Positions 6,856 to 19,052 of a stretch of DNA of 64,000 bases are shown here, piece by piece. This DNA comes from Oscillospiraceae bacterium (GTDB taxonomy: Bacteria; Bacillota; Clostridia; Oscillospirales; Ruminococcaceae), in assembly GCA_014799385.1 (NCBI GenBank), contig JAAVIC010000033.1, forward strand, positions 124,001-188,000, in the 5' to 3' direction. Under the pieces are notes generated by a model. It saw only the letters and a list, made by a program, of their open reading frames with translations, searched no databases and was not told the origin of the DNA. The translations under genes were made by a program, and so were the position numbers. How positions within the stretch are numbered: position 1 is the stretch's first letter; every line of letters begins with the position of its first letter.

Positions 6856-8081
6856 ATTTCTCCATATCTCCCGCCGATTTCTCTATACACGTCAAAGAAA
6901 TTCGGGAACGACTTGCGTACACATTCCGCGCCGCGTATTATCAACGGACTTTCGCAGCGTGTTGCCGCAATCGCCATGGACATCGCGATTCGGTGGTCGT
7001 TAAAGCACTCCACCTCACCGCCCGAAAGCGACTTAACACCATCAATTTCAAGGCAGTCCTCACTCGCCGAAACGCGTCCGCCAATACGGTTCAGACAAGT
7101 TTCCATCGCGGCAAGACGGTCACACTCCTTTATGCGCAGGCGCGCAACATTTGTGAGTCTGCTCTTGCCATTACAGAAGCTCGCCAGAACAGCAAGAATC
7201 GGAACCAAATCGGGAATATCCGAGCAATCCAATTCAAATGCGTTCCCGGTTTTGGTGAATTGTTCGCAGATTTCCACAATTTTCTTGTCGCCTTGACCGG
7301 ATTTTTCGTTTAACCCACGGATTTCAAGATTCGCGCCCAGTGCGTTCGCGACATAAAAGAACGCCGCCTGTGAGTAATCGCCCTCAACCGCAGAGTTATG
7401 AGGTTTTAGCCGTTGTCTGCCGCGAATTTGGTATTTGTTTTCCGTTTCGTGGATTTCACTCCCAAACGAACGCAGAACGTCCAACGTGATGTCCACATAC
7501 GGCTTTGAGTTAAACTTGTTGATTATATCAATTTCGCTGTTGCCGTCTGTAAGAGTTAATGCAAACAGCAGTCCAGTGATGAATTGCGATGAAACGCTCC
7601 CATCGATTTGATACCGCCCAGCTGAGAGCTTACCGGATACGCGGCAGGGGAGGGAATCGCCATTTTTCGCGTTCGAAAAGTCGAATGTGATTCCGTGGCG
7701 CGGAAGCTCCTCCGTGAACGTGGTAATCGGTCGCTGTGGGAGTTTTCCACTGCCGATAAATTCCGCGTTTACACCCAACGCGCACGCTACGGGAATCAAG
7801 AATCGCAATGTTGACCCGGACTCGTGGCAATCCAGAACAACTTTATCAGGCGAATTTTTAATACCTTCAATCATCGCAATATCGTTGTTGAAGTCGATTT
7901 TCGCTCCCAAAGAACGCATACAGTCCATAGTCGCGAGAATATCCACAGATGGATACAGGTTTGATATACGCGAAACTCCGTTTGCCAGTGCCGCCGCTAT
8001 AATCATTCGGTGCGCAACGCTTTTTGACGGCGGAACTGTAACCGCGCCGCGCAGTTCACTTGGAATAATCTGTAAATCCAT
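6852..8081 (-). CDS. aroA: 3-phosphoshikimate 1-carboxyvinyltransferase (EPSP synthase)
   Basis: Joins PEP to shikimate 3-phosphate. From ATG 8081 it is 409 aa; that start has SD GTGAGG 7 bp upstream and lies just after the aroB stop, whereas the in-frame TTG at 8087 overlaps the SD. The active-site strings are PPSKSVAHRMIIAAALANG near the N-terminus, HESGSTLRFLIPVA, GSVSSQFITGLLFAL and IKECDRLAAM near the C-terminus. The shikimate site carries Ala after the GSTLRF loop region as in divergent (class II-like) enzymes, which I could not classify further. Assignment is firm. Confidence 0.95.
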   Translation of the reverse strand: MDLQIIPSELRGAVTVPPSKSVAHRMIIAAALANGVSRISNLYPSVDILATMDCMRSLGAKIDFNNDIAMIEGIKNSPDKVVLDCHESGSTLRFLIPVACALGVNAEFIGSGKLPQRPITTFTEELPRHGITFDFSNAKNGDSLPCRVSGKLSAGRYQIDGSVSSQFITGLLFALTLTDGNSEIDIINKFNSKPYVDITLDVLRSFGSEIHETENKYQIRGRQRLKPHNSAVEGDYSQAAFFYVANALGANLEIRGLNEKSGQGDKKIVEICEQFTKTGNAFELDCSDIPDLVPILAVLASFCNGKSRLTNVARLRIKECDRLAAMETCLNRIGGRVSASEDCLEIDGVKSLSGGEVECFNDHRIAMSMAIAATRCESPLIIRGAECVRKSFPNFFDVYREIGGRYGEI

Positions 8082-8083
8082 AC

Positions 8084-9139
8084 TCAAACCTCACCCAACA
8101 GGAAAATCCGATACTCATCGACCGACATATTTACAACCTCGCTTTGCCCGATGTCGGTGCAAATTACGATATTCATTCCATTGGCGAGGTGTTTCTTATC
8201 ACCGAGCGACAGCTCGAACAAATCCTTTAGCGGCGCACGGTCGGTAATCGGCAGTCCGCATTTTATCAGCAATTCGTCCAAATGATTTGCAACTCCGGGA
8301 TTGCACATTCCGCGGCGTTCCGCGATATGTGTGAATGTACTCATTCCAATGGAAACCGCGCAGCCGTGTGTCAGTTTTTGGAAGTTGTAATATTTTTCCA
8401 GCGCGTGACCGAGAGTATGTCCGAAATTCAGCAGCATACGCTCGCCATGCTCACGCTCGTCATTCTCCACAACCTGTCCTTTAATCGTCACATTGCGGCG
8501 GATTATATCCACCATATTCTCTTTGATGTCTTTTGCGGAGAGTATGTCAAACAACTCTCGTGATTTGATCATTCCGTGCTTGATGACTTCCGCCATACCG
8601 TCCGAAAAAAACGCGGGGGTAAGTGTGTTTAAGGTATCCGTATCGCAGATAACGAGCCGCGGTTGATGGAATCTCCCTACAAGGTTCTTGCCAGCGGGGA
8701 TATCCACGGCTGTTTTTCCTCCTACGGAACTGTCAGACTGTGCGACAACCGTTGTCGGAATCTGAACAAAGTCGATTCCACGCATATAAGTTGACGCCAC
8801 GAATCCAGCGGTATCGCCGACCACTCCGCCGCCCAACGCAACAATAAAATCCGAGCGTGTGTATCCGTTTTCCGCAAGAAAATCGTATATGTTCAACAGG
8901 GTAGTGTGGTTTTTGGAAGACTCCCCGTGATTGAAAACGTACTTTTTTGCGTTTATCCCGGCATTGCGAAGCGATTTCATAACTCTTTCGCCGTAGTGGA
9001 AATTCACATTGTCATCTGTAATAACAGCGGCTTTTCCGCCTAATTCCAATTCGGCGATATATTCACCGCATTTATCAAGAATCCCCTTATCAATCAGAAT
9101 ATCATATTTTGTGCTTGCATTTACGATTACCTTTTCCAT
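8084..9139 (-). CDS. aroB: 3-dehydroquinate synthase
   Basis: Cyclises DAHP to 3-dehydroquinate using catalytic NAD+ and a divalent metal. The 351 residues match the family. NAD and metal signatures are FIVALGGGVVGDTAGFVASTY, the substrate loop IPTTVVAQSDSSVGGKTAVD, E190-region AEVIKHG, and NFGHTLGHALE with ligand histidines. It is the first gene of the aro operon, with SD GGAGGG and a promoter 30-60 bp upstream. No DAHP synthase, aroD, aroE or aroK gene is in the window. Confidence 0.97.
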   Translation of the reverse strand: MEKVIVNASTKYDILIDKGILDKCGEYIAELELGGKAAVITDDNVNFHYGERVMKSLRNAGINAKKYVFNHGESSKNHTTLLNIYDFLAENGYTRSDFIVALGGGVVGDTAGFVASTYMRGIDFVQIPTTVVAQSDSSVGGKTAVDIPAGKNLVGRFHQPRLVICDTDTLNTLTPAFFSDGMAEVIKHGMIKSRELFDILSAKDIKENMVDIIRRNVTIKGQVVENDEREHGERMLLNFGHTLGHALEKYYNFQKLTHGCAVSIGMSTFTHIAERRGMCNPGVANHLDELLIKCGLPITDRAPLKDLFELSLGDKKHLANGMNIVICTDIGQSEVVNMSVDEYRIFLLGEV

Positions 9140-13793: not shown

Positions 13794-14372
13794 ATGAGAA
13801 ATTCCAAGAAAACGGAAGAAGTAAAGACTGCAGCAACTGCGGCAAGCAAGACTTCCACTAAATCGGAAACTAAGACCGAAACCAAGTCCGCCGCTGCAAA
13901 GACTACGGCTGCCAAAAAGTCCGTTGCCAAGAAGGCTGAACCTGCTAAAAAAGCAACTCCCGCAAAGAAAACCACTGCTAAGACGGCTGCGAAGAAAACC
14001 ACCGAGAAGGCTGCTCCCAAGGCTGCCGCTAAGAAAACAAAGTCCGTAACTATTGACACAATTTGCGAAAAGCTGGAGAAGAAGATCAACAAAACCAAGG
14101 CTGCGGCAATTGAAAAGACCATCGCAGTTGACATTGAGGTTTATGAGTTTGAGGACGGCTCAAATCAGAAGATGTATGTTGAAATCAAGGGCGGTAATGT
14201 AACCGTTGCCCCGCACAGCTATGATGACAAGAGCTTCAGAGTTGCGCTGAGCTTTGCGAACGCTGTTGCGTTTGTGAATGGCAAAATCACACTTGCATTG
14301 CTGCTGGATTCCGAGAAGTTCTACGCAGAGGGAAACATCGCCGATGCGATTAAGTTCGCTTCAATTTTCTAA
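13794..14372 (+). CDS. Histone-H1-like Lys/Ala tail fused to SCP2-like domain
   Basis: A 192-residue protein in two parts. Residues 1-83 are almost only Lys, Ala, Thr, Ser, Pro and Glu, with PAKKA- and AAKKT-type repeats like the C-terminal tails of histone H1 or bacterial H1-like DNA binders. Residues 84-192 read as a compact alpha/beta domain whose end (NGKITLALLLDSEKFYAEGNIADAIKFASIF) matches the closing helix of SCP2-like lipid-binding domains. The start has SD AAAGGAA, its own promoter and terminator, so it is monocistronic. A plausible reading is a nucleoid-bound or polyanion-bound protein with a ligand-binding head. The SCP2 call is from pattern only. Confidence 0.75.
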   Translation: MRNSKKTEEVKTAATAASKTSTKSETKTETKSAAAKTTAAKKSVAKKAEPAKKATPAKKTTAKTAAKKTTEKAAPKAAAKKTKSVTIDTICEKLEKKINKTKAAAIEKTIAVDIEVYEFEDGSNQKMYVEIKGGNVTVAPHSYDDKSFRVALSFANAVAFVNGKITLALLLDSEKFYAEGNIADAIKFASIF

Positions 14373-14467: not shown

Positions 14468-15259
14468 TTACAGCAAAAATATCTCTCCAAGCCTCTTTTC
14501 GATGAAGTCCATCGTTTTTAGTGCGCTTCTCGCGCCGCCCGCCGCGACTTGGACATTCATCGGTCTAAGCGGCGAAGTATCTGGAATAAACGCGTAATCC
14601 CCATATTCAAGCATTTGCAAATCCAGCGCTCCGTCCCCGGATGTAACCACATATTGCGGATTCAGAATGTTTTCACACAGCCATTTCAGTGCCGACCCTT
14701 TGGTTACATTCGCCGGAATTGCCAGACATTTGTGACCTTGCCGCTCAAACTGCCAATCGGAATATATTTCGTTCAACTCGGCAGCCGCCGCGTCAAACTC
14801 GGAAACATCATCGAGCTTGCACAACAAAAAGATTGAATCCACAAATTCAACCTCGGTAGAACGTGTTTTGAACTTCGTTTCAAAATAGCGGGTAATTTCC
14901 TTACACGAAGTATGATCGATAGCCGATGTAACAATTTCGCTCCATTCCGGTATCGGTTCGTCATTATGGAGGATAAATCCTCCGTTGGATACAATAGCGT
15001 ACTCGGGAGCCGCTCCCTGCCACAGTTTGACCCGATTGTACCGCATTAGATCCCTTGTTGTAGCGGGAATAAAAATCACTCGCGAATCCTCTGCCAGACA
15101 TTTCAAATTCGTTTGCACTTCCCTGTCCATATAGCTCAATTCAGTATCATCGCGCCGTTCCACGCAGACAAAATCCCCCTCTGATTGGTGCACGTTCAGA
15201 AATCTTCGCGAGAAAATAAGCGTCTGATCCAAATCCGATGCGTAAACCAACTTGTCCAT
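14468..15259 (-). CDS. HAD-superfamily phosphatase of the Ter-type nucleoside module
   Basis: A 263-residue HAD hydrolase. I start at ATG 15259 (MDKLVYASDLDQTLIFSRR), because it lies behind the previous stop and puts the catalytic DLDQT (D9, D11) at the usual N-terminal place; the longer frame overlaps the upstream gene. Motif II is in FIPATTRDLM and motif IV in TSGDGALDLQML. A C2-type cap lies between. In Ter-associated operons such a HAD protein is thought to dephosphorylate the product of the phosphoribosyltransferases. It is the last of four tightly spaced genes. The substrate is unknown. Confidence 0.85.
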   Translation of the reverse strand: MDKLVYASDLDQTLIFSRRFLNVHQSEGDFVCVERRDDTELSYMDREVQTNLKCLAEDSRVIFIPATTRDLMRYNRVKLWQGAAPEYAIVSNGGFILHNDEPIPEWSEIVTSAIDHTSCKEITRYFETKFKTRSTEVEFVDSIFLLCKLDDVSEFDAAAAELNEIYSDWQFERQGHKCLAIPANVTKGSALKWLCENILNPQYVVTSGDGALDLQMLEYGDYAFIPDTSPLRPMNVQVAAGGARSALKTMDFIEKRLGEIFLL

Positions 15260-15270
15260 AAATCCTCCCG

Positions 15271-16377
15271 TTATGCGTCCGCCAATTCTTTGATAATTCC
15301 GCAAGCCTTGTAGCTGCCGAGATTGTACGGAATAACGCGAACCCCTTTCTCCTTGCACAATGTGAAAATATGCCGCAAATCAAAGTCGTTACGGTCGGCG
15401 CGTTCGTCTATCAACACCGCCCATGGAACACGGCGCAGCAGTACTCTCGTAGTTTCGCCAATTCCCGGCTTTACTTTGAGGTAATCCTTAATTTCAAAAC
15501 GTCCGCAAATCCGCTTAACCACCGACATTCCGGACTCGGTAAGCTCCTCAAATCCGCTTTGCTCATCGGATACGGGAGTAAAACACGCCGAAACTTCGTC
15601 CACAAAGCTACGGCTCAGGTCTTGCGGCTCGAAATCCGCGAAATACACCGCGCCGTGGAAATCTCCATCGGAAACTCTGATATGCTCATTAAGAATCGAT
15701 CTGCTGATAAGCCCGCTGACTATGCTGTTCAAACATGCCGTGGGGAGCAGAAAATCTTTGTGAGTGCCGCAGAAAGAAGTGATGTTCGCGGGGTCTGCCA
15801 GAACGTACAAATCATCGCGCAATCCCAGCCATTTTTTATCCGCCCGAATCAGGGATTTCACCGCGTCATTCAGTTGAGTTTTGATAGCGCCCTTCCCTGT
15901 CCAGCCGTCCACAAAGAAAATATCCGCCGCTGTGGAATGCCCGGTGGCTATTTCGTGATCGTAGATATATTCCATCGCATTGATGTCAATTCCCTTATCT
16001 CGGATAATGCTTATCGCGTAATGCGGACATTCGCAGTCCAAAAATTCGGCGAGATAACGTTTCAAAAGCACTCCCACGGGGATCCCCGCGCGCGCCAGAC
16101 TGACGATAACGGGTCTTGGAGATTTGGCGGAAAGCATCGCCGACAGTTTCGCGGTCATCTGCGCGATTTCGTGCTCATGATGTTCCACCGCTCTGAAATA
16201 CAAATCCAGATATTCCTTTGACGGCGGCTTCTCCAACGGGAGCATTGAGCTGTAATGCGAGCCGCTCTGAATCCGTTTTTCGCGCTCCTCTGCGGAAAGC
16301 GGAACCATAACCCCTGTTAAATCCTTGAGCAGAATCGTTACGTCATTGGAATCGTATGATGTTTTAACTAACTTCAT
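15271..16377 (-). CDS. Phosphoribosyltransferase-like (StiP/PRTase_1) with C-terminal PELOTA domain
   Basis: A 368-residue protein named cysteine protease StiP family in public annotation, but built as a phosphoribosyltransferase. RPVIVSLARAGIPVGVLL (about 88-105) is the hood/first loop, and DIFFVDGWTGKGAI (152-165) occupies the PRPP-loop position in altered form, with Asp-Gly-Trp in place of the usual acidic pair. Residues 303-366 (KPGIGETTRVLLRRVPWAVLID ... VRVIPYNLGSYKACGIIKEL) match a PELOTA/L7Ae-like RNA-binding domain. It overlaps the upstream PRTase gene by 4 bp. In Ter operons this pair is predicted to make a ribonucleoside-like metabolite; the reaction is unproven. Confidence 0.85.
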   Translation of the reverse strand: MKLVKTSYDSNDVTILLKDLTGVMVPLSAEEREKRIQSGSHYSSMLPLEKPPSKEYLDLYFRAVEHHEHEIAQMTAKLSAMLSAKSPRPVIVSLARAGIPVGVLLKRYLAEFLDCECPHYAISIIRDKGIDINAMEYIYDHEIATGHSTAADIFFVDGWTGKGAIKTQLNDAVKSLIRADKKWLGLRDDLYVLADPANITSFCGTHKDFLLPTACLNSIVSGLISRSILNEHIRVSDGDFHGAVYFADFEPQDLSRSFVDEVSACFTPVSDEQSGFEELTESGMSVVKRICGRFEIKDYLKVKPGIGETTRVLLRRVPWAVLIDERADRNDFDLRHIFTLCKEKGVRVIPYNLGSYKACGIIKELADA

Positions 16378-17504
16378 TTCCCCTCCGAAATACGTACAAC
16401 AATAAATCTTCCGCAGTCTAGCAGACTGCCCAAACGAGAAAAAACTTCGCTTTCAGCCGCGTCCGTAATCAATAACGCAATGTCGGTACGCTCCTCAATA
16501 TTATATAGGTATGTTGTGCGGTTGTGGTCGTAAACGCTCGGCAAACAGATTTTACCGTGGATTCCGTTCGGTTCGCGGCTTATTACATCAATTGGGCTTC
16601 GTGTAGTACTGTGGCAAACAACGTCAAATCCAAGATTTTCCAGATGCTCCGAGACGCGTATAGGAACATACATAAACTCCTCCGTGCCAATCACGCGGAT
16701 TGTGTCCCCCTTTAGTTTTAGGGAATCAACCGCAGTGAAAACGGAGGACAAATCACGGTTGGGTTTGTGCTCCAGCCGCTCTCTTATCGGAATTTCGACA
16801 TTGATAAACTCAATCGGTTTATTCCTCGAATAATTACACACCGATTCGGGGAGCGCATTTACATCTGACATCTTTTGATTGACATCGCGAATTTTCCCAG
16901 ACAACAGGTAGAACAAGTCAATTCCGTTCTTGCGGAATCGTTCACGTTCTTGTTCGTTCTGCCAGTTGCAGATACTCGCGATTCCGAACCGCGAATTTAT
17001 GCCCTCGCGGTTCAATCCCTCAATAAAATTCAACGCGGTATTCCCCGTGGTTATTTCATCATCTACAATCAGAATGTAGTCGAATTTCGTGAAAGACTTG
17101 CGATTCCCGTAAATACGCTGTTGAACCGCGTGGCTGTGTTCCTCGCGAAATTCAAACAGCACGCCGACATCATCTAGCGGCTCACGCGTTGTTTGGAAAA
17201 CGCACGAAATCTGCGGAATCTCATCCGCGACAAAATTCCCGATAGCGGTTGCGGTTTCGGCAAAAGCAACCACTGCAATCCGCAAATCGAGAGGTAAACG
17301 ATTTTTTATCACATCCGCCAATTCCCTGCACATCGCAATCATCTCGTGCGCAGAACACGGAATGTGCTTGCATTGCTTGCGATTTACGAATAAAAAGTCG
17401 CGTTTGGGATTGTTCGAGCGGTGCTCAACTATGATATTGTCACATGAGAATCCGTTTTCGGTAATACTCCCTACATATGTATTCAATTTTTTCATTGCAT
17501 TCAT
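16374..17504 (-). CDS. Phosphoribosyltransferase with C-terminal TRSP domain
   Basis: A 376-residue protein. The N-terminal half is a type I phosphoribosyltransferase, with AVVAFAETATAIGNFVADE (about 78-95) and a full PRPP-binding loop ILIVDDEITTGNT (144-156). The C-terminal part is a TRSP domain, named for the conserved Thr-Arg-Ser-Pro seen here as CHSTTRSPI (297-305), with GTEEFMYVP and HGKICLPSVYDHN nearby. This architecture is known from Ter-linked operons predicted to build a nucleoside-like compound. It lies 2 bp after the lyase gene and overlaps the PELOTA gene by 4 bp. Substrate base unknown. Confidence 0.88.
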   Translation of the reverse strand: MNAMKKLNTYVGSITENGFSCDNIIVEHRSNNPKRDFLFVNRKQCKHIPCSAHEMIAMCRELADVIKNRLPLDLRIAVVAFAETATAIGNFVADEIPQISCVFQTTREPLDDVGVLFEFREEHSHAVQQRIYGNRKSFTKFDYILIVDDEITTGNTALNFIEGLNREGINSRFGIASICNWQNEQERERFRKNGIDLFYLLSGKIRDVNQKMSDVNALPESVCNYSRNKPIEFINVEIPIRERLEHKPNRDLSSVFTAVDSLKLKGDTIRVIGTEEFMYVPIRVSEHLENLGFDVVCHSTTRSPIDVISREPNGIHGKICLPSVYDHNRTTYLYNIEERTDIALLITDAAESEVFSRLGSLLDCGRFIVVRISEGK

Positions 17505-17506
17505 TA

Positions 17507-18562
17507 TTAGTATCGGCTCACTCCACGCTCTTCATCAATAGTTCCGTAAACGGAAGCCAACCCGACTGTCTTCCGCGCCCAGTTAATGTGTGTTTTTACC
17601 TCGTTCATACGGTTTCCCGAAACACCTTTTGATACTCCGATTATGTTCTCGTTCATTCCGAGGATACTTACCGCCTCACGGTAATCTGTGAACTGTACGA
17701 TCAGGGATTTCTGCACCACGGGAAGCTGTGACGGGTGAATGCACGTTTTCCCTATGAATCCTTGAAGTCTGTCACGGCGAAGCTCGTTGCACAATCCGTG
17801 TTTCCACGCGGTGTCGGCGGGATTGTCCTTATTCCGGAAAAACTCCCAGACAGGACCGCTTACAACGTAACTCCTGCCGAACACGTTGATTATATCCTCA
17901 AGGACGCTGCGCACCGCGCCTATATCGTAAATAGTATCGGTTATCCCGCGGCGTATCCCGAGAATACTACAGAAATCCGCGCCGCCCACACGGATATTAA
18001 GCACCCGACCGCTGATCCAATTCAGCGTGTCATACATTTTCAGCAGATTTTCCATACGGAACTGTTTGTACAGCGCTTGTTTGTTCTCGATGATGGGCAT
18101 AATGTACAAATTCCCCGGGAGCGCGGAAAATTCGTCAATATACCGCGCGCAGTTCAGACGGTCGAATTTCGGGACAACAAATCCCGTGATGTACTTTATC
18201 GCACTCCCCAATGCCTTTACAACGGCGGACATTTGATTAAATCCGCGAATACGCACGAAAATAAGCGGAACATTCTCGTCCGCTAATGCGCTCCTTTCCA
18301 CAGCGTTTGCCAATACGGTTACGGTTCGGGAAATCGACTTCATTCCAAAATCTACCAAATCATCTCCGAGCGAATCCTCCAAATCGAGAACCATCGACTT
18401 CACGAACGAATACTCCCCGTTTATGATTTTTTTTGCGATTTTCGTGTTGCTTGCGGGCATATACAGCAATCCCCCGACAGCGTACTGAAGAACTTCCTTT
18501 CCGCTTGTTCTGCTGAACATCTGCGGCTGCGTGGAATATTCCAAATCAAACTTATACTGCAT
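17507..18562 (-). CDS. HpcH/HpaI aldolase / CitE-like lyase of the Ter-type module
   Basis: A 351-residue TIM-barrel lyase of the HpcH/HpaI-CitE type. Visible family landmarks are GGLLYMPASNTKIAKK, the metal/substrate motif MVLDLEDSLGDD, FVRIRGF, GFVVPKFD, IMPIIENKQALY, IRVGGADFCSILGI and GKTCIHPSQLPVV. It differs from genuine citrate lyase beta subunits in length and in the company it keeps: it is the first gene of the four-gene module and has its own promoter and SD GGAGG. In Ter-type operons the family is thought to supply or trim the carbon side chain of the metabolite; that is prediction. Confidence 0.88.
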   Translation of the reverse strand: MQYKFDLEYSTQPQMFSRTSGKEVLQYAVGGLLYMPASNTKIAKKIINGEYSFVKSMVLDLEDSLGDDLVDFGMKSISRTVTVLANAVERSALADENVPLIFVRIRGFNQMSAVVKALGSAIKYITGFVVPKFDRLNCARYIDEFSALPGNLYIMPIIENKQALYKQFRMENLLKMYDTLNWISGRVLNIRVGGADFCSILGIRRGITDTIYDIGAVRSVLEDIINVFGRSYVVSGPVWEFFRNKDNPADTAWKHGLCNELRRDRLQGFIGKTCIHPSQLPVVQKSLIVQFTDYREAVSILGMNENIIGVSKGVSGNRMNEVKTHINWARKTVGLASVYGTIDEERGVSRY

Positions 18563-18595
18563 TTTTCCTCCAAAATGTTCCGAATAGTTTCCTAT

Positions 18596-18624
18596 ATTAT
18601 ATCACATCTTTTACAAAATTTCAA
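18596..18624 (-). promoter_or_regulatory. Promoter of the Ter-type nucleoside operon
   Basis: On the minus strand TTGAAA, a 17-bp spacer and TATAAT lie about 34 bp before the lyase ATG. No operator palindrome is evident in the short leader. Confidence 0.8.
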
Positions 18625-18689: not shown

Positions 18690-18975
18690 CGAGACTTTTG
18701 TTATAATATTACAGAAAAAACAAAAATTCCCAACGAGCGTTTCAGTGGAAATTAACAGCACGATATCCGTGCTATAATTTACTAACAACAAAGATTTTCG
18801 TTTTGACCTTACAGCGAAAACCTAAAATTCCCGATGAGCGTTTCATTGGAAATTGACTGCACGGATACCACGCTATGATTTACTAACAACAAAGATTTTC
18901 GTTTTAGCCCTACAGTGAAAACAAAAAAATTCCCAATGAGAATTTCATTGGGAATTGACTGCGTGGTTATCACGC
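18690..18975. repeat. Tandem repeats of about 101 bp next to tRNA-fMet
   Basis: Two full units (18723-18823, 18824-18925), a final half unit (18926-18975) and a decayed first remnant (about 18690-18722). Each full unit runs AAAATTCCC...GAGCGTTTCA...GGAAATT, a short GC hairpin, TTTACTAACAACAAAGATTTTCGTTTT and ACAG.GAAAAC. The last unit contains the working terminator of tRNA-fMet, and the GC hairpin corresponds to the sequence just before the tRNA 3' end. The array therefore looks like serial duplication of the tRNA's 3' flank. The stretch holds no gene. Confidence 0.75.
18926..18956 (-). terminator. Terminator of tRNA-fMet
   Basis: AATTCCCAATGA and TCATTGGGAATT form a perfect 12-bp stem with a 5-nt loop, followed on the minus strand by TTTTTT. 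It lies 19 bp after the tRNA. Confidence 0.85.

Positions 18976-19052
<77 letters not shown>

Follow-up and report, generated by a model that had tools for sequence, protein, structure and literature searches.

Does a tellurium-resistance (Ter)-type biosynthetic operon that has no TerD gene beside it work alone, or does it still belong to a Ter system? The question arises from a 64,000-nucleotide stretch of the Oscillospiraceae bacterium assembly GCA_014799385.1 (contig JAAVIC010000033.1, positions 124,001–188,000; G000:C33:124001-188000), hereafter the window. Its source genome, G000, comprises 2.69 Mb and is 99.91% complete. Four genes on the minus strand (14468–18562) encode a C-C bond lyase, two phosphoribosyltransferases (PRTases) and a HAD-type phosphatase. 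Anantharaman, Iyer and Aravind reportedly described such a module in 2012 as part of a Ter-dependent stress response and predicted that it makes a nucleoside-like compound. A preliminary description of the window recognized this module and proposed that it works alone. Our analysis indicates instead that it is probably a complete, apparently functional Ter-associated module, detached on the chromosome and still serving its Ter partners in trans.

The operon is a complete Ter-associated module

Pfam searches of the window's open reading frames, together with a promoter-consensus scan, delineated the following features, given here from the promoter downstream.

18596–18624, minus strand: candidate sigma-70-like promoter, TTGAAA-17-TATAAT, TG-extended (consensus match; same hexamers and spacing in G570)
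17507–18562, minus strand: C-C bond lyase, TIM-barrel fold, HpcH/HpaI-CitE-like, 351 residues (PF15617; invariant residues)
16374–17504, minus strand: PRTase_2 + TRSP protein, 376 residues, loop VDDEITTGNT (Pfam)
15271–16377, minus strand: StiP + PELOTA_1 protein, 368 residues, loop VDGWTGKG (Pfam, fold and conservation); StiP is the PRTase_1 of the preliminary description
14468–15259, minus strand: HAD-type phosphatase, 263 residues from ATG (Pfam; translation from ATG; motifs invariant in 13 of 13)

Scores were far above cut-off for the lyase (E = 1.8e-94), for PRTase_2 with its C-terminal TRSP domain (PF15609, 4.2e-43; PF12500, 6.2e-20) and for StiP with PELOTA_1 (PF11202, 5.8e-89; 1.1e-26). 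The score of the HAD frame (14468–15358; Hydrolase_3, 3.8e-9) was modest yet above cut-off; the protein matches generic HAD models only and stays below every NCBIfam cut-off. The four-gene operon, its domain names and the TRSP and PELOTA matches anticipated in the preliminary description are thus confirmed, and the domains of all four genes place it in the Ter-associated "nucleoside-like" module. Of the 4-bp and 2-bp spacings given there, the 2 bp separates lyase and PRTase_2, but the 4 bp is an overlap (ATGA) between PRTase_2 and StiP, and the HAD gene follows StiP after 11 bp if it starts with the ATG at 15259. This ATG lies behind a GGAGG and is most likely the start codon, 15358 being merely the first GTG of the frame.

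The closest relative found, G570 (contig L163), keeps all four genes, flanked as in the window by tRNA-Met and the SCP-2 gene. Protein identities to the window are 94, 89, 88 and 87% for the lyase, PRTase_2, StiP and HAD, and the ratios of nonsynonymous to synonymous substitution rates (dN/dS) are 0.09, 0.17, 0.13 and 0.22 in the same order, indicating purifying selection (for the HAD, the comparison began one codon upstream of its ATG). Retention of the whole block at these identities and ratios argues that the operon is not a chance arrangement. The promoter proposed earlier has a candidate in the site at 18624–18596, with 11 of 12 consensus matches; since the scan returned 14 sites against 8.7 expected in shuffled sequences, this site taken by itself is a consensus match, and identical hexamers at the same spacing stand upstream of the G570 operon.

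The putative catalytic parts appear intact. Residues E62, D63, R104, E159, D196 and K272 of the lyase were present in 37 of 37 aligned sequences (alignment A5, the window plus 36 of 62 lyases), and the HAD motifs D-x-D-x-T, a lysine and G-D...D were invariant throughout alignment A6 (the window plus 12 of 51 HADs). A PDB sequence search with all four proteins retrieved no close solved relative (best E = 0.052).

Ter genes lie elsewhere in the same genome

Within the window, we found no TerD, TerC or Ter-type ATP-grasp gene, as the preliminary description had noted (TerB, which it also listed, was not searched for). A genome-wide profile search gave a different picture, with three TerD matches above cut-off in G000, at C27:214276, C27:215612 and C33:233568. 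The last is the nearest, 91–95 kb from the module on the same contig. Around the C27 pair, the frames run in the order vWA protein (TerY-like), PP2C phosphatase, protein kinase, P-type ATPase, TerD, TerD-containing protein, YceG and TelA; the P-type ATPase was named from its frame, and its 51% identical homologue in G115 has P-type domains. The notion of a genome without Ter genes was therefore rejected, and the proposal that the module works alone is not supported: the operon looks orphaned because its tellurium-resistance genes sit outside the window. Absence from 64 kb is not absence from the genome, and correcting this claim is the chief outcome of the analysis.

The sole ATPgrasp_Ter match in G000 was a 1073-residue, carB-sized frame on another contig (39.9 bits). 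Because this model also hit carB-sized frames in many genomes, among the matches listed, we accepted a Ter-type ATP-grasp only near 350 residues and above 100 bits, which left those of G028, G094, G096 and G111. The component seems optional, as it occurs in 15 of 80 named loci, many of which are cut by contig ends; these loci are the best 80 of 595 confirmed and are biased to near kin.

Compared with the Ter-dependent stress module, the window's module is alike in its PRTases and HAD but differs in lying far from TerD, with the Ter core locus on another contig. Lactococcus plasmid pFI430 (NC_025249.1) shows the same gene order (HpcH/HpaI-type lyase, phosphoribosyltransferase, StiP and a hypothetical protein at the HAD position), but there the four genes are directly followed by YceG, TelA (toxic anion resistance), three TerD and a DUF475 protein. 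In Klebsiella pneumoniae, too, the ter locus is described as having a "putative biosynthetic cluster" for which a nucleoside-like product is predicted, and this cluster adjoins terZ-F (PMC8115787), unlike the detached module of the window.

StiP co-occurs with TerD across genomes

We next surveyed StiP and TerD in a family sample and in a phylum sample of genomes at least 90% complete. StiP scored above cut-off in 11 of 148 family genomes and TerD in 20; the corresponding numbers in the phylum were 24 and 27 of 398. TerD was present in every StiP genome (11/11 and 24/24; Fisher p = 1.3e-11 and 1.5e-35, not corrected for relatedness). The two sets overlap in G000 alone, giving 34 different StiP genomes, all with TerD. 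StiP lay within 10 kb of TerD on one contig in 6 of the 11 family genomes (G006, G028, G111, G115, G136 and G139) and in 21 of the 24 phylum genomes (exceptions G000, G423 and G445). Pooled, this amounts to 27 of 34, some of the other seven being on short contigs, and we therefore treat adjacency to Ter genes as usual rather than defining. In G115, for example, the four genes stand between a P-type ATPase and TerD-TerD-TelA-YceG.

The preliminary description had itself named the rest of the Ter operon beside the module in relatives, rearranged only here, as the finding that would speak against a solitary module. Such neighbours are what we found. Rearrangement in this genome only is nevertheless too simple an account and was discarded, since G570 has the same locus and only a minority of StiP genes in the genus lie near TerD (see below). 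Detached modules thus exist even though StiP and TerD stay tied at genome level in both samples, so linkage alone under-counts Ter systems. Literature searches aimed at other topics turned up no publication on detached modules or PRTase fusions.

The family is common, and mobile elements also carry it. StiP matches occurred in 2566 of 72,556 plasmid records, mostly from Klebsiella, Escherichia, Enterobacter and Salmonella, and in 3 of 50,697 phage records, two of which are entries of the same phage, ME3. The plasmid modules L182 (Bradyrhizobium) and L183 (Brevibacillus) have transposase genes within 5 kb. An unannotated frame (7095–8144) in L184 (MT836648.1), an unverified "Bacteriophage sp." faecal contig that may be bacterial DNA, encodes a 46% identical StiP-PELOTA relative.

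The module varies within the genus

All 43 genomes of the genus carry TerD, 32 carry StiP and 12 the lyase. The StiP genes are of three kinds: separate StiP, a fused PRTase frame, and the form shared by the window and G570. Separate StiP genes lie no more than 10 kb from TerD, on the same contig, in 5 of the 32 StiP genomes (G548, G555, G576, G579 and G584; short contigs may hide some). In G094, G552, G573, G582 and G583, the lyase adjoins TerD on one contig and StiP is on another; G094 and G582 have an ATP-grasp gene directly before PRTase_2.

In 17 of the 32 StiP genomes, a single frame of 699–770 residues joins PRTase_2-TRSP to StiP-PELOTA. This count is based on frame lengths; BLAST recognized both halves in 16 loci, Pfam did so in the two put to it, and G544 was assigned from the length of its frame and the position of StiP. 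G559, truncated at a contig end, and the fragments G558 and G566 were not sorted by length. Natural fusion argues that the two PRTases are working partners. No lyase match was found in any of the 17 genomes, several of them incomplete, so the lyase step would be optional and cannot be essential everywhere. Fusions and losses within one genus thus suggest that the double PRTase forms the pathway's core and that the lyase is dispensable.

In a StiP tree of 137 proteins (the 138 sequences of our conservation set minus the partial L136), those of the window and G570 stand together on a long, isolated branch. The fused clade, including G559, stands apart at support 100. Outside the genus, the closest rows are L034 and L035, which belong to other Clostridia; they join the window's branch at support 86, below the 95 mark, and have lyase-PRTase_2-StiP-HAD with TerD beside. 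The copy in this lineage is detached from its Ter partners, and it was either gained sideways or kept while its kin lost theirs. The GC content of the operon resembles that of its flanks, giving no hint of recent gain. Insertion as a recent island at tRNA-Met (18976–19052) is unproven; no 14-base stretch of this tRNA recurs between ~8 and 24 kb of the window.

The fused clade comprises 17 loci (L156–L162 and L164–L173), 16 with a whole fused frame, L172 being truncated at a contig end. Ten of the 17 have a PHP-type protein immediately upstream in the same orientation, 7 have a HAD downstream and 3 have both; a DUF1015 protein is downstream in 8 (one representative of each neighbour was put to Pfam). 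This distribution hints at a PHP phosphoesterase standing in for the HAD in some members of the genus. In G560 (L167:627-8040), a w22385-znuC-znuB block 76–81% identical to that of the window is followed 2.3 kb later by the fused PRTase and a HAD, with no SipW or tRNA-Met match between the znu block and the fused PRTase. Here, in one genome, the fused version apparently sits at the window's locus, possibly through replacement in place.

A stand-alone role is unlikely

The strongest competing explanation is that the module truly stands alone, this lineage using the four enzymes for a purpose unrelated to Ter genes. No TerD lies closer than 91 kb in G000 or anywhere on the 8.8-kb G570 contig, the 17 fused-type copies are likewise all on contigs without TerD matches, detached copies are not rare among named loci, and two plasmid copies show no annotated Ter gene nearby. 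We nevertheless judge this explanation unlikely, as all 34 StiP genomes of the two samples encode TerD, the nearest outside-genus rows have the module beside TerD, and G000 itself holds a Ter core locus.

Several observations weigh against our preferred explanation. Of the 44 named loci whose flanks extend 9 kb or more in both directions, 15 lack TerD and TelA within that distance of StiP (some have YceG, vWA or ATPase matches); this count covers the named loci only, and TerD elsewhere in their genomes was not searched. The plasmid copies L182 and L183 have no annotated Ter gene within 9 kb, in an incomplete gene table. G032, a further family genome not counted among the 11, has a StiP match below cut-off (19.1 bits) and no TerD. 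The genome search of G000 yielded no TerC, a further difference from the Ter-dependent stress module. Because TerD is universal in the genus, the StiP-TerD tie gains no support there, and 11 of 43 genomes have TerD without StiP; the lyase, as noted, is missing with the fused type. In E. coli, terZ-F alone is reported to suffice for tellurite resistance, so the module is not needed for that phenotype (PMC8115787). Finally, co-occurrence does not prove coupling in trans.

Loops and folds of the two PRTases

We then compared the two PRTases. The predicted structure of the PRTase_2 protein has an APRT/XPRT-like PRTase fold at about 10–18% identity to these enzymes; structural matches span residues 14–215 and barely cover the TRSP part. 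Type I PRTases canonically bind 5-phosphoribosyl 1-pyrophosphate (PRPP) through a loop with an acidic pair followed by T-T/S-G. PRTase_2 has the acidic pair and the T-T/S-G-x-T loop (alignment A4, the window plus 67 of 69 PRTase_2 frames).

StiP was modelled as a PyrR/HGPRT-like PRTase fold, again at about 10–18% identity, with a C-terminal L7Ae-like domain, and its top structural matches are mostly PRTases. It departs from PyrR and HGPRT in this fused domain and in carrying DGW-x-GKG where the acidic pair and T-T/S-G loop are usual. The preliminary description took VDGWTGKG for an altered loop and suggested that one partner may be structural or RNA-directed. That the loop marks a degenerate or structural copy is not supported, as we found it to be a family signature, with D, G, W, G and G in 138 of 138 sequences (153 hits, less 15 identical rows; alignment A3 comprised the window plus 70 of the 80 named loci). 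As for the RNA-directed role that it offered as an alternative, PELOTA_1 was modelled as an RNA-binding-type domain, matching L7Ae, Snu13 and 15.5K chains with Foldseek probabilities of 0.99–1.00; the motif K-P-x-x-G-E-x-T-R-V-L-L-R-R is nearly invariant across the 138 sequences. The row of best E-value was a glycine-cleavage complex (probability 0.41), with aminotransferase and cysteine desulfurase chains (0.18–0.44) interspersed, which we read as noise, given probabilities of 0.87–1.00 for the named L7Ae and PRTase rows.

In L056, L068, L088 and L090, which form one clade, StiP-PELOTA and a HAD occur with no recognized PRTase_2 nearby (L068 alone was read frame by frame).

Proposed pathway and alternatives

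We propose that the CitE/HpcH-type lyase generates or trims a small precursor of acyl or base-like nature, to which the APRT-like PRTase_2, with its canonical loop, would join 5-phosphoribose from PRPP. StiP-PELOTA, the fusion partner of PRTase_2 in related genomes, may perform a second phosphoribosyl step or gate the first under RNA control, and the HAD phosphatase would then strip the 5'-phosphate. TerD-type proteins from the other loci, near the vWA/PP2C/kinase triad, TelA, YceG and the P-type ATPase, would serve as sensors of the product. In PMC7824862, PRTases and HADs are described as making a nucleoside signal that TerB/TerD perhaps sense, and PMC5571608 reports on the PELOTA_1 protein of pathogenic E. 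coli, with modelled kink-turn binding. The nucleoside-like metabolite, predicted in 2012, is still treated as a prediction in later papers, as far as their available text goes.

A Ter-associated module acting in trans best explains the domains, the Ter core locus in G000, the constant company of TerD in both samples and the intact motifs of four proteins, as well as the L034/L035 and pFI430 layouts, the folds, the fusions and the purifying selection. In G136, a xanthine/uracil permease-family protein (L028:5904-7274) lies within the Ter operon, between TerD genes, hinting that the acceptor or product is possibly nucleobase-like.

The boldest alternative is an RNA-linked phosphoribosylation, in which the two PRTases constitute one RNA-guided or RNA-modifying enzyme. 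PELOTA would recruit a structured RNA, the pair would attach a phosphoribosyl group to it or exchange a base, and the phosphatase (HAD here, perhaps PHP-type in some relatives) would finish by trimming the phosphate, with no free nucleoside formed. The L7Ae-type matches and the near-invariant PELOTA motif favour this idea, as does PyrR, an RNA-binding PRTase, among the best structural matches of StiP. Rit1 offers a precedent for PRPP addition onto RNA (PMC7694415). However, PRTase_2 resembles the free-base enzymes APRT and XPRT, no RNA target is known, an Rfam scan of the window gave two tRNAs only, and a common fold is no proof of function; we consider the idea improbable. If it were true, the fused PRTase_2-TRSP-StiP-PELOTA would be the natural core, and the lyase and ATP-grasp optional suppliers. 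The StiP model in any case makes an RNA-linked role testable.

That StiP is a cysteine protease, making the operon one of proteolysis plus metabolism, is implied by its name in Pfam, NCBI and plasmid annotation, but was rejected as highly implausible: the most conserved Cys column holds Cys in 128 of 138 sequences, the remaining 10 having L, I, F or H there, PRTases dominate the best structural matches, the protein carries an L7Ae-like domain, and the one paper found with the phrase is, by its title and the start of its abstract, an enzyme survey. The PyrR-like PRTase with an L7Ae-like domain argues against keeping this label.

Neighbouring features

Convergent with the operon, a frame at 13794–14372 encodes a 192-residue protein whose N-terminal half is rich in Lys and Ala and which has a weak SCP-2 domain; it is kept in G570 at 91% identity. 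On the other side, a terminator-like hairpin lies at 18928–18956, and a partly decayed second copy, recognized by eye, lies nearer the operon at ~18720–18755; G570 has a similar one.

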